From the NCBI GenBank assembly GCA_019694685.1, contig JAIBBM010000004.1:62001-126000 (forward strand): 64,000 nt of DNA. Reading direction: 5' to 3'. How positions within the stretch are numbered: position 1 is the first letter of the stretch; every line of letters starts with the position of its first letter. Positions 21,235 through 25,378 of the stretch are shown piece after piece. A program made the translations under genes and the position numbers. Below the pieces are notes generated by a model. It did no database searches, had not been told where the DNA came from, and saw only the letters and a program-made list of their open reading frames with translations. This stretch comes from Leptospirales bacterium (lineage in GTDB: Bacteria > Spirochaetota > Leptospiria > Leptospirales > Leptonemataceae).

Positions 21235-21879
21235 ATGAGTTCAAAACTCTTTCCCCTGGTGCTGGACCTTCACAATCGTCCGGTGCTCATTGCAGGAGAA
21301 GGGAGTCATGCCCTGGAGAAAATTCGCCTTCTGATTGAGTCGGGCGCACAGGTTCGTCTCTATTGTGAACCCAATGATCCCAATCTGGATGTGGTTCGCG
21401 CGCAAGTAGAATGGCGGTCCCCGCCAGTAGCCGCCCTCGACCTGGACGATGTGTTTTTTGCAGTCTATGCCGGAGAAGATCGCGCGGAGGCGGAGCGATT
21501 GTTTCAGCTCGCGGAATCAAAGTGTAAACTCTTCTGCAGCGTGGATGATCCGGCGCACTGCAACGTAATATTTCCTGCGATCGCGCGCTCGGGATCGGTT
21601 CAGGTTGCCATTTCCACGTCTGGCCTGAGCCCGACGCTCGCGCGCAGGTTGAAGGATCAGATTCAAAAAGAAATTCTTGGAGATCACATGGGTGATTTTG
21701 CGGAGTTTCTTGGATACTGCCGGACCAATCTGAATCCTAGAATTTCTGGTTTTGAAAACAAAAAGAAGTTCTGGGATCGGGTGTTTGATTCGGACGTACT
21801 TGAAATTCTGAAATCAAAAGGACAAGAGGCTGCTTACAAGAGAGTCGTGGATCTTCTGGATCTGGAACAACTGCCCTGA
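21235..21879 (+). CDS. Precorrin-2 dehydrogenase / sirohydrochlorin ferrochelatase-like protein
   Basis: A 214-residue protein matching the CysG N-terminal domain/Met8p/SirC family: the NAD-binding start FPLVLDLHNRPVLIAGEG, the catalytic region FCSVDDPAHCNVIFPA and AISTSGLSPTLARRLKDQI. It would oxidise precorrin-2 to sirohydrochlorin and possibly insert iron to make siroheme, the cofactor of the sulfite reductase encoded upstream. It lacks the uroporphyrinogen methyltransferase domain of full CysG, which must be encoded elsewhere. Coupled closely to cysH (3-base gap). Confidence 0.88.
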   Translation: MSSKLFPLVLDLHNRPVLIAGEGSHALEKIRLLIESGAQVRLYCEPNDPNLDVVRAQVEWRSPPVAALDLDDVFFAVYAGEDRAEAERLFQLAESKCKLFCSVDDPAHCNVIFPAIARSGSVQVAISTSGLSPTLARRLKDQIQKEILGDHMGDFAEFLGYCRTNLNPRISGFENKKKFWDRVFDSDVLEILKSKGQEAAYKRVVDLLDLEQLP

Positions 21880-22070
21880 GTGTCGATTTGATCTTGCTTC
21901 GCATTCGCGCTCGGTATTGAGTCTGATTTTCAATCCTCTCTTCTTTGCAGCCGCTTTTCGAAATATTATAACAGATAGAGTTTTTGTGTGATTCTAAATA
22001 GTTTGTATTTCTAAACTACATTGGGCGGATTTTCGTTGATGGTGGGGGTTGATCGAATTTTCCAGGTAAC
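21880..22070 (+). promoter_or_regulatory. AT-rich intergenic region before the dioxygenase/RidA operon
   Basis: A 191-bp gap between the siroheme gene and the next operon. Its centre (about 21955-22020) is much richer in A and T than the surroundings (ATATTATAAC, TGATTCTAAATAG, TTGTATTTCTAAAC) and probably holds the promoter for the two genes that follow, but several -10 candidates overlap and I do not choose one. The downstream GTG start has CAGG 5-8 bases upstream. Confidence 0.4.
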
Positions 22071-22904
22071 GTGAGCAAAAGCAATGGTGATAAGGTAACG
22101 TCATCGGATCTGATTACGCGCGTTGAGGGTCCAAAATTCCGGGATGGAAAAATTATTGTCTCGCCCTTGAATCCGGATGATTTGAAAACTCCGGTCGTTA
22201 TTTTCAAGAAAGTGTATCCTCCTGATTTTTTGGAAGAAGTGAGGAGGTCTGTGGTAAATCACAGATTTGCATTTGAAGACTATCACCTCAACGAAGCAGG
22301 GCTGGCGGATAACTTCAAACGATACGATGACCTTCGCACAAGAGAAAGACGTTCCTGTTTTGCGCAGATCTACTCCTTTTATTTTTGGAATCAAGGTACG
22401 CCGGAGATCGTGTCGGAATTCCTGCAATCTCTTACCCGGTTTGGCAATGTCATTGCGGGTAGAGAAGAAAATGATCGCCTGGATTTGACGGCGCAAAAAT
22501 GGGCCGCTTTGATTTGTGCGAGTTATCCTGCAGGAGGCATGCTCGGAAATCATCATTTCAGCGATGATCTGGGTGGCTATCATGATCGTTTTGACGAACT
22601 GGTGGTGCAGTTTGCAAAGTATGGCCGCGACTACAAGGAAGGAGGAGTTCATTTTGCGCGCCGCCTTCAGATGACGGAAACCTATTCGCCTTCCAACCAT
22701 GGGCCGCTTGAATTTATCGAGCCCGAGCTGGATGTAGGCGACATCATTGCGATCACAATCAAAGATGCGTATCACAGGGTAACTCCCGTTGACCCGCAAC
22801 TGGATTATCGTGATCCACTGAAAGGCCGATTCATTGGCCAACTCTACTACACACTGGCTAGCGATCTGAAGAAACTCTCCGCCTCTGGTGAGCAATCGAA
22901 ATGA
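22071..22904 (+). CDS. Putative 2-oxoglutarate/Fe(II) oxygenase-like protein
   Basis: A 277-residue protein, GTG start. From residue 150 on it follows the layout of double-stranded beta-helix dioxygenases: YPAGGMLGNHHFSDD (152-166) where the first iron ligand is expected, EGGVHF near 190, then GDIIAITIKDAYHRVTPV (224-240) with a likely second histidine at 235, and GRF (252-254) where the 2-oxoglutarate-binding arginine is expected. A clean HxD/E motif is not visible, so iron ligation may be unusual or absent. The product and substrate are unknown. It overlaps the RidA-like gene by 4 bases, implying a shared pathway. Confidence 0.5.
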   Translation: MSKSNGDKVTSSDLITRVEGPKFRDGKIIVSPLNPDDLKTPVVIFKKVYPPDFLEEVRRSVVNHRFAFEDYHLNEAGLADNFKRYDDLRTRERRSCFAQIYSFYFWNQGTPEIVSEFLQSLTRFGNVIAGREENDRLDLTAQKWAALICASYPAGGMLGNHHFSDDLGGYHDRFDELVVQFAKYGRDYKEGGVHFARRLQMTETYSPSNHGPLEFIEPELDVGDIIAITIKDAYHRVTPVDPQLDYRDPLKGRFIGQLYYTLASDLKKLSASGEQSK

Positions 22905-24016
22905 AAGCCGCCGTTTCGCGCAAAAGTGAAGTAGAGGAAATGATCGTTGTCAATGGAGTGAATGCCGCTTCCTTTCTGGAAGAGGCCAATCACCTTGTTG
23001 CATCCTATTTGAGCCAGCTGGAGCAGAAGGATCTCTCCATGGACTCCTGCATTTCTATGGTGATCTTCGTGTCAGACATCGCCAATCAGGAACAGATTCT
23101 GGAGAGAATGCCGTTCTTTCAGGATCTAAGATCCATGAACTGTGCCATTTCTATTGTGGGGGCGGCACCCGTAGGCAATCGAATCAGTCTCATCGCCCAC
23201 CATGCAGAAGAACCGGGCCTGTTCAAAAAGCTCATTAGAATTGAAGAAAATTTAAACGGCGCGCAGATCTTGCGCCTGGTCCGAAAAGATCGCGAACTTC
23301 ATATCCTATTCAATTTCAAGGGGAGACCAACTGATGACGTAGAGGGTCAGACAAGTTCTGTTTTTGAGAGACTCTTCGCTTATTGCAAATGCATGAATCT
23401 GGATCCGAAAAAACTTGTGCGGACCTGGATTTATGTGAATGATATCGACAACAATTACGCGGGAATGGTGGAGGCGCGAAAGTCGTTTTTCCACGCGCAT
23501 GGACTGACGCCTGACTCCGGTTATCCGGCGAGCACCGGGATTGGAGGACGGTCGAGAGACCATCGCCTATCCGTTCTGGTGAATGCGCATATTTACGACA
23601 ATCAAACGCAAGTGGAACGAATTCAAGCACTCACTCACATGAACCCCACAATTGAGTACGGTGTTACTTTTGAACGTGCGATGCAGGTGGAACTGGATCA
23701 GGGACGTTATGTTTACATTTCCGGCACTGCGAGCATTGACAATGAGGGTTGCATTGTTTGCGAATTGGATCTGGAAGGACAGGTGAATCGAACCGTTGAG
23801 AATATCGCGGCGCTGCTTGAGTCTTGCGAAATGAGGCTGGAAGACTTGATGTATGTATGCATCTACTTGCGGGACTTCAATGAAGAGCACAGGACAAGAT
23901 CCTGCATTCAGAAACTCTTGCCTGGTAATGTTCCGTTTGTTTTGTTGCACGCACCTGTTTGCCGTCCTGGCTGGCTCATCGAAATAGACGGTCTGGCAAG
24001 AAAAACAAGTCTTTGA
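22901..24016 (+). CDS. Multi-domain RidA/YjgF-fold protein, chorismatase (FkbO/Hyg5/XanB2)-like
   Basis: A 371-residue protein whose C-terminal part (about 255-366) is an evident RidA/YjgF domain: YVYISGTASID, GQVNRTVENIAALLESC, VCIYLRDFNEE and ending LIEIDGLA. Residues about 130-230 look like a second such domain (RTWIYVNDIDNNYAGMVEAR then PASTGIGG), and 15-100 perhaps a third degenerate one. Long proteins with this layout include chorismatases, which hydrolyse chorismate to hydroxybenzoates or dihydroxycyclohexadienoate; the penultimate-helix EID glutamate fits their catalytic Glu. Plain RidA deaminases are only about 130 aa. Translationally coupled to the preceding oxygenase-like gene. Confidence 0.55.
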   Translation: MKAAVSRKSEVEEMIVVNGVNAASFLEEANHLVASYLSQLEQKDLSMDSCISMVIFVSDIANQEQILERMPFFQDLRSMNCAISIVGAAPVGNRISLIAHHAEEPGLFKKLIRIEENLNGAQILRLVRKDRELHILFNFKGRPTDDVEGQTSSVFERLFAYCKCMNLDPKKLVRTWIYVNDIDNNYAGMVEARKSFFHAHGLTPDSGYPASTGIGGRSRDHRLSVLVNAHIYDNQTQVERIQALTHMNPTIEYGVTFERAMQVELDQGRYVYISGTASIDNEGCIVCELDLEGQVNRTVENIAALLESCEMRLEDLMYVCIYLRDFNEEHRTRSCIQKLLPGNVPFVLLHAPVCRPGWLIEIDGLARKTSL

Positions 24017-24112: not shown

Positions 24113-25378
24113 GTGTCCATGCACAATACTCTGGAACAAATCCTGCGGCAGAGAGAAGTTCGCGGGGAAAGAACCGTAGCTCTCCTGCGGGCTGCGTTCA
24201 TCTCACTTGCCGTCTTTCTCGATGTCCTTGCATTCGCTCACGTCATCCCTCCCTATACCAGTTCGCCTCCCGCAGTGAGCACTCTGTTGCTCGATGCGTT
24301 TTTTCTTTCGGCAGCTCTGGCTTTTGCGATCCTCGCACTGAAGGGAGTTTACTATGGCTTCTTAAAGTTTGTTACCATCACCCTTGATTATGTTCTGATT
24401 CTTGTGATGTTCGCGTTTGACCCGTCGCTTGCTGGAGCAGGGATAGAGAACCTGTGGCTTGCTGTGATTGCACCTGTGTTCATGTTGTATCTGAACCTGA
24501 TCCGCTTCTCACAATCGGCGGCCTGGTATGCGGCGGGTTTGTCTGTCGCACAATGCGCGATCGTTGCGCGGTTGATCCTCGGTTCCTGGGAACTGCAAAA
24601 GATTCTTCCGCTTGAGTTCGGGCTCTTGATGCTCATTTCCATTGGACTTGCTGTAAGCGCCGCAGGCCGCCAGATGACGGAAGAAGCCAGTGCAAAGCAA
24701 ATGCTTGAACGTTATCTGCCACCGCAGCTGGTAAAAGAATTGCAGCGAAGCAAAGCAAGTCTGGTTCCCGGAGGCAGGCGGCAGTTTGTCACGATGCTGT
24801 TTGCAGATATCCGCGGCTTCACCAGGATTTCAGAGACGCTAAGTCCGGAGCAGGTGGTTGAGGTTCTCAACGACTATTTGTCCACCATGACAGATGTGAT
24901 TTTTGCTCACGAGGGGACCATTGATAAGTTCATCGGCGATGCAGTCATGACGATTTTCGGATCGCCCGTTAGCCGGCCAGACGACGTGGTGCGTGCCTTT
25001 CGCGCCGCTCAGGGAATGATTCTAGCGCTCGACGAATTTAACGCTCGGCATCCAGAGCTTCCGTCGCCCATTGCCATTGGTGTGGGTCTGCATGCAGGAG
25101 AGGTCATTGCCGGCAACATTGGCTCTGCAAAGCGACTCGACTACACCGTGATTGGAGACAACGTCAATCTTACTTCACGCATCGAGGCGCTGACGAAGCA
25201 CTATGGTTGCAGAATCCTGGCAAGCAGTGCTGTGATAGAGGGACTCAAACGCTGCGGTGTGGAACCGGCCGCGCGAGAAATTGATACGGTCATTGTGCAG
25301 GGTAAAACGCAGTCTGTGGTGGTGTACGAGCTGTTTGTAGAGGCTGCTCCGGCGACTGTTTCTTCCACACAGTTTTAA
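24113..25378 (+). CDS. Membrane-bound class III adenylate cyclase
   Basis: A 421-residue protein with about six membrane helices (25-190) and a cytoplasmic cyclase domain (about 225-400) making cyclic AMP from ATP. Metal-binding aspartates lie in LFADIRGFTRI and IGDAVMTIFG, the purine-site lysine in IDKFIGDA, the adenine-specifying LDYTVIGDN, and the transition-state Asn/Arg in NLTSRIEA. A short linker with ERYLPPQLVKEL precedes the domain, as in many spirochaetal cyclases. The start is a GTG at 24113 or the ATG at 24119. No partner gene is evident nearby. Confidence 0.9.
   Translation: MSMHNTLEQILRQREVRGERTVALLRAAFISLAVFLDVLAFAHVIPPYTSSPPAVSTLLLDAFFLSAALAFAILALKGVYYGFLKFVTITLDYVLILVMFAFDPSLAGAGIENLWLAVIAPVFMLYLNLIRFSQSAAWYAAGLSVAQCAIVARLILGSWELQKILPLEFGLLMLISIGLAVSAAGRQMTEEASAKQMLERYLPPQLVKELQRSKASLVPGGRRQFVTMLFADIRGFTRISETLSPEQVVEVLNDYLSTMTDVIFAHEGTIDKFIGDAVMTIFGSPVSRPDDVVRAFRAAQGMILALDEFNARHPELPSPIAIGVGLHAGEVIAGNIGSAKRLDYTVIGDNVNLTSRIEALTKHYGCRILASSAVIEGLKRCGVEPAAREIDTVIVQGKTQSVVVYELFVEAAPATVSSTQF

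Follow-up and report, generated by a model that had tools for sequence, protein, structure and literature searches.

Chorismatases of the FkbO/Hyg5/XanB2 type are reportedly built as a pseudo-trimer, with three RidA-like domains in each chain. Glu334 of Hyg5 has been described as the catalytic glutamate, and G164, G231 and C318 of Nat-hyg5 as the residues of the Hyg5-type subfamily (PMC7170507), while the reaction of a chorismatase is not accurately predictable from sequence alone (PMC3949708). A covalent trimer of Rid domains is likewise found in 3x-RidA proteins, which are repeats of the RidA subfamily (PMC4433059).

The window analysed here, a stretch of 64,000 nucleotides from the draft genome of a Leptospirales bacterium (134 contigs, 93% complete, 6% contamination), contains a two-gene unit in which a putative sister family of the chorismatases is coupled to an orphan protein family. 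The chorismatase architecture itself is already known; no described pairing of the kind was found, as the first-pass annotation had also remarked. Unlike FkbO, Hyg5 and XanB2, the chorismatase-like protein has a partner gene, and no PKS/NRPS or pigment genes were seen nearby.

Layout and surroundings of the gene pair

Gene 1 (22071..22904, plus strand, GTG start, 277 aa) encodes an orphan, oxygenase-like protein and gene 2 (22901..24016, plus strand, 371 aa) a predicted chorismatase-fold protein of three RidA-like domains. The stop codon of gene 1 and the start codon of gene 2 overlap in the four bases ATGA (22901..22904, plus strand), for which translational coupling is expected, and the pair is preceded by an AT-rich intergenic leader of 191 bases (21880..22070, plus strand; 39% G+C versus 50% for the window). 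Both the two-gene operon and the AT-rich leader proposed in the first-pass annotation are thereby borne out, and the two reading frames are not chance ORFs, since homologues in the same order occur in another phylum. A plus-strand promoter scan of the leader detected no promoter-like site, an Rfam scan of the leader gave no match, and a terminator scan at the locus found nothing. At 48% G+C, the pair is close to the neighbouring genes tested (48–53%), so that composition alone is no mark of foreign origin.

The pair is flanked by a siroheme-type gene (21235–21879) before it and an adenylate cyclase gene (24113–25378) after it. It does lie beside a sulfate island, as had been pointed out, but the connection does not extend beyond position: two genomes of the same genus share genes with the window up to the siroheme gene and carry different genes after it, which leaves the link to the sulfate genes only positional. 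The adenylate cyclase had 54 and 70 matches in these two genomes, an unusually large cyclase repertoire. Elsewhere in the window's own genome, two near-identical PhyH-type oxygenase genes were present on contigs C79 and C18, reflecting either a duplication or an assembly effect.

The second gene and its wider family

Pfam identified a RidA domain (PF01042) at the C-terminus of the gene 2 protein (residues 266–367, E = 3e-20), and a match to FkbO_Hyg5-like_N fell below threshold. Three RidA-like domains can be delimited, at about residues 1–109, 110–255 and 256–371. Profiles of these thirds, taken from an 82-member alignment, matched each other (middle versus C-terminal E = 3.9e-6, N-terminal versus middle E = 2.8e-4, N-terminal versus C-terminal E = 4.1e-4), with all 15 control comparisons with other families at 0.036 or worse. 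Judged by these profiles, the N-terminal RidA-like domain, suggested at first pass as perhaps a third and degenerate copy, is real and the most degenerate of the three.

A sequence search of solved structures returned FkbO (4bps, E = 6e-6) and Hyg5 (5ag3, E = 2.4e-4), and the family profile of gene 2 matched Hyg5 at E = 8e-13. Foldseek comparison of an AlphaFold model with a pLDDT of only 67 (pTM 0.73) ranked the same two chorismatases above every single-domain RidA structure, with whole-chain matches to 4bps (E = 1.2e-15, TM 0.60/0.67, 388 columns) and to 5ag3 (E = 2.0e-15, about 390 columns). The modelled three-domain build is that of the known chorismatases. Two alternatives had been raised for this protein, a RidA trimer mimicked in one chain and a chorismatase; given that chorismatases are said to be such pseudo-trimers, they amount to the same idea, and the whole-chain fold match upholds it.

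Gene 2 nevertheless stands well apart from the described enzymes. Its membership of TIGR04444 (FkbO/Hyg5 chorismatase) was rejected by a score of 61 bits versus a curated cut-off of 325, with control proteins from Streptomyces and Pseudonocardia plasmids scoring 519 and 357 bits, and against TIGR00004, a model for RidA imine deaminases, it reached 48 bits (cut-off 106). Identity to FkbO/Hyg5/XanB2 chorismatases was below 30% (about 27–29% for plasmid-borne FkbO/Hyg5 family members), the N-terminal part is of a different length and sequence, and Trp358 takes the place of Leu. With so low a score and identity, a change of substrate is quite possible.

The catalytic Glu, the Cys, the Gly and most other active-site residues of the chorismatases are kept all the same. 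The predicted active-site stretch APVCRPGWLIEID (23951..23989, plus strand) holds C354, R355 and E361, of which C354 aligns with Hyg5 C327 and E361, invariant in the alignment, is equivalent to the catalytic glutamate (Hyg5 E334, FkbO E338) whose retention the first-pass annotation had named as a check. By alignment, the PASTGIG motif of the central domain (P209–G215; 23525..23545, plus strand) contains G213, the counterpart of Hyg5 Gly173, while the SGTASI motif (23720..23737, plus strand) contains G275, the counterpart of Hyg5 G240 (Ala in FkbO); G213, G275 and C354 together supply the Gly, Gly and Cys of the Hyg5-type subfamily. Across 85 family members and three chorismatase-like reference rows, invariant positions were R174, W176, Y186, R193, T212, G213, I214, F257, R259, G275, T276, A277, Q294, N301, Y322, C354, R355, L359 and E361, and nearly every conserved position is common to the gene 2 family and the Streptomyces and Pseudonocardia plasmid chorismatases that pass the cut-off. 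P209 was seen only in gene 2, its Omnitrophota homologue and true chorismatases (0 of 83 other family members), and A260, also as in chorismatases, in gene 2, the same homologue and three other members. FkbO R311 is not conserved, being S334 in gene 2.

A scan of species genomes found 97 relatives of gene 2, of which 80 were kept, from Bacteroidota (mostly Prevotella and other Bacteroidales), Fibrobacterota, Spirochaetota, Lentisphaerota, Planctomycetota, Latescibacterota, Parcubacteria, Bacillota and Omnitrophota. By sequence, gene 2 belongs with them to a separate sister family of the chorismatases, of putative function, which databases label 'Rid family hydrolase'. Members from Bacteroidales, Fibrobacterota, Spirochaetota and Acidiphilium plasmids are like gene 2 in length and domain build, about 30–43% identical to it and share all active-site residues, but, in contrast to the clade of paired genes, their position 209 is Ile/Leu/Val, their position 260 is nearly always Gly, and they lack gene 1. 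The top-scoring relative overall was the Omnitrophota protein, which the tree placed as sister to gene 2 (support 100/99). When three chorismatase-like rows were used as outgroup, the remaining 44 members were separated from this pair clade and the chorismatases with support of 95/88. Rooted in this way, the family would have the pair clade as its first branch, a tentative placement because both the pair clade and the outgroup have long branches.

A shared genomic neighbourhood was looked for across the whole family and none was found, the neighbours being variable. In four Fibrobacterota genomes a ResB-like gene for cytochrome c biogenesis comes directly after the relative, and in some Bacteroidota it follows a di-haem oxidoreductase gene (L025 4430–5851, L145 4620–6026), with imelysin and porin genes also nearby on a Parabacteroides plasmid. 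Seven Prevotella-type genomes have a PD40 beta-propeller gene just upstream, often itself preceded by a DUF6057 gene. A Parcubacteria relative adjoins a CMP-sugar synthase-like gene.

The partner gene and the spread of the pair

Searches with gene 1 against Pfam, NCBIfam and PHROGs gave no match even at E 1–10, and there was none among PDB sequences either. Its sequence places it in an undescribed protein family that looks weakly oxygenase-like, and in which two further members were found: an orthologue in an Omnitrophota genome and, in the same genome and cluster, a paralogue with 30% identity (L092 1468–2316; L107 6446–7294) upstream of B12-binding radical SAM genes. H161, H162, D166, H235 and R253 are conserved in all three. 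The lack of a clean HxD motif, already recorded at first pass, is common to the three members: in a register taken from a weak profile comparison (H161-H162-F163), the acid position is Phe, Phe and, in the paralogue, Thr (HHT for HHF), while the distal H235 is kept.

Fe(II)/2-oxoglutarate oxygenases (PF13640, PF05721) are like gene 1 in the spacing of the first His, the distal His and the following Arg and in the GG and GD turns; gene 1 is unlike them in the HxD Asp replaced by Phe or Thr and in lacking detectable membership. In profile comparisons the pooled oxygenase set came first by a marginal difference (24.5 versus 21.0 for an unrelated control), and four oxygenase profiles were all within the nine best of those compared. 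An initial comparison with PF13640 proteins (E = 0.0018) was dropped, as the E-value became 0.04 with a changed set, in which column-shuffled decoys reached 21.7 versus 20.8. The AlphaFold model, from an alignment of three sequences only, had a pLDDT of 33, and Foldseek with this poor model returned mostly 2OG oxygenases in the top rows, none of them significant. The dioxygenase proposed in the first-pass annotation thus did not find a significant family or fold match; it is retained as a lead, from layout and weak profile similarity.

We give a smaller, though appreciable, chance to gene 1 not being an Fe(II)/2-oxoglutarate enzyme at all but a beta-sandwich protein, cupin-like or otherwise, that lacks a bound metal and whose role beside gene 2 is perhaps structural or regulatory, an option compatible with any reading of the latter. 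The absence of HxD from all three members and the empty Pfam, NCBIfam, PHROGs and PDB sequence searches fit such a protein, whereas the invariant H161, H162, H235 and R253 in oxygenase-layout spacing, the rank of the four oxygenase profiles and the composition of the non-significant Foldseek rows argue against it.

The pair recurs, with its order kept, in one Omnitrophota genome (L010 5081–5884 and 5887–7086, separated by a 2-base gap), at 50% identity for gene 1 and 37% for gene 2. There it is part of a cluster that is rich in radical SAM genes and also carries sugar genes of the nonulosonate type, in which Pfam recognised B12-binding radical SAM proteins, SPASM radical SAM proteins and a TPP enzyme; from reading of the sequences, a NeuB-like synthase, a WbqC-like protein, an SpsF-like cytidylyltransferase, an LmbE-type deacetylase and putative methyltransferases also appear to be encoded. 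No sugar or radical SAM cluster genes of this sort were found among the neighbours of the window's own pair.

Conservation of the pair across Leptospirales, which the first-pass annotation had suggested examining, was rejected, as it was for Spirochaetota at large: gene 1 was found once among 61 relatives and once among 393 genomes of the phylum, each time in the window's own genome and in no other of about 390. Absence of the pair from related genomes is an outcome that the first-pass annotation had named as refuting. Its recurrence in a phylum not related to this one, on the other hand, lends support to a functional unit that moves horizontally. Apart from chance-level matches, two over all these searches, gene 1 was absent from other Omnitrophota (236 genomes, then 324 of one class, partly overlapping), from 64 Latescibacterota and from 39 genomes with relatives of gene 2. 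It was not found in phages, plasmids or viral contigs, and a scan of 84,980 species genomes for exact peptide patterns, all derived from gene 1, had no hit; this is weak evidence, since the Omnitrophota orthologue, which came to light through its position next to gene 2, had escaped that scan. As the genomes searched are samples and the window's genome is a draft, the rarity of gene 1 holds for the sampled genomes. So far, the two-gene unit is rare and known only from two very distantly related bacteria. From its joint presence in two phyla, the same gene order and the sisterhood of the gene 2 proteins, the simplest and likeliest reading is that the two genes spread horizontally together, which two instances support but do not prove. 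Overall, the observation made at first pass is confirmed and its interpretation partly supported.

Possible chemistry of the two-gene unit

The unit probably serves to produce a small aromatic acid and to modify it. Starting from the fold of gene 2 and its three-domain build, the conservation of its active-site residues and the recurrence of the pair, which we regard as established, we lean slightly towards a horizontally acquired unit in which gene 2 converts chorismate to a hydroxybenzoate and gene 1 is a tailoring, oxygenase-like partner. Gene 2 would be a chorismatase-type lyase/hydrolase whose active site, like that of FkbO and Hyg5, lies where the central domain meets the C-terminal one. 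If it works as Hyg5 does, E361 would protonate the enolpyruvyl methylene of chorismate, pyruvate would leave and the ring would aromatise. The Hyg5-type Gly275 and Cys354 make a hydroxybenzoate, likely 3-HBA, the expected product; 4-HBA or a dihydrodiol is also possible, since sequence is no reliable guide to the type of product. Gene 1, probably a double-stranded beta-helix protein of the Fe(II)/2-oxoglutarate type, would then act on this product or a conjugate of it. We infer the gene 2 step, with its substrate and product, from residue conservation, and the gene 1 step, with its oxygenase chemistry and place in the order, only from gene order and layout.

The grouping of the pair clade with chorismatases (95/88), P209 and the Acidiphilium plasmid setting described below support this proposal; the score of 61 versus 325 bits, S334 in place of FkbO R311 and the lack of a significant family match for gene 1 count against it. 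So does the taxonomic range, most relatives of gene 2 coming from Bacteroidales and Fibrobacter, where the genes next to them differ from case to case. These bacteria use menaquinone, and we know of no obvious use for hydroxybenzoate in them.

Rather unlikely, in our estimate, is a variant in which the chorismatase fold and acid/base machinery of gene 2 act on some compound other than chorismate, either an enolpyruvyl or an enamine/imine one, which gene 1 would tailor; an intermediate made by the glycan cluster, linked to a sugar or derived from an amino acid, would be an example. It gains from the low identity and sub-threshold score, from a wide family living where hydroxybenzoate has no known use, and from the sugar-related surroundings of both the Omnitrophota pair and the Parcubacteria relative, but loses by the invariance of nearly all chorismatase-conserved residues across the family and by the pair clade being its most chorismatase-like part. 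Very improbable is a generic RidA imine/enamine deaminase of the 3x-RidA kind directed against reactive intermediates, with gene 1 an unrelated neighbour: the Pfam RidA domain, the 'Rid family hydrolase' labels and the known 3x-RidA fusions would suit it, but gene 2 has Leu348 at what we take to be the RidA Arg105 position (hand alignment with E. coli RidA), its central and C-terminal motifs are chorismatase-type, its best whole-chain fold matches are chorismatases, and the two genes occur together in two phyla.

If, as in the favoured chorismate reading, gene 2 and its relatives act on chorismate, the large 'Rid family hydrolase' family of gut Bacteroidales, Fibrobacter, spirochaetes and others would be an aromatic-acid producer overlooked by annotation, and the pair would bring into chorismate chemistry an orphan family whose conserved His-His motif is unusual. 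2OG halogenases have an HxG/HxA site, of which the HHF/HHT of gene 1 is reminiscent. In a more far-reaching and doubtful combination, gene 1 would found a new Fe(II)/2OG-like family with a two-His iron site (HHF/HHT for HxD), and it would modify the hydroxybenzoate that gene 2 makes, for use as an aromatic unit of a surface glycan. The sister family would in this combination be a hitherto unrecognised supplier of hydroxybenzoate that needs no oxygen, with a candidate among its members for the 4-HBA synthase that certain Alphaproteobacteria are missing in ubiquinone synthesis.

Ubiquinone synthesis starts from 4-hydroxybenzoate. A 2025 study left the source of this compound in Hyphomicrobium denitrificans unexplained (PMC12423496). 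On the Acidiphilium plasmids pACRY03 (L142 3491–12228) and pACMV3 (L143 5357–10905), SCP2, U32 and U32 genes, in an order resembling the UbiT-, UbiU-, UbiV-type layout of oxygen-independent ubiquinone synthesis, are followed by a relative of gene 2 and then by pdxST. This place after UbiT/U/V-type genes makes the relative a testable candidate for 4-hydroxybenzoate supply, and the plasmid set possibly reads like one for life without oxygen. The same arrangement is present on a third, near-identical plasmid filed under Acidithiobacillus, the three being one lineage and hence one observation, and an anaerobic ribonucleotide reductase is encoded further along in two of the three.
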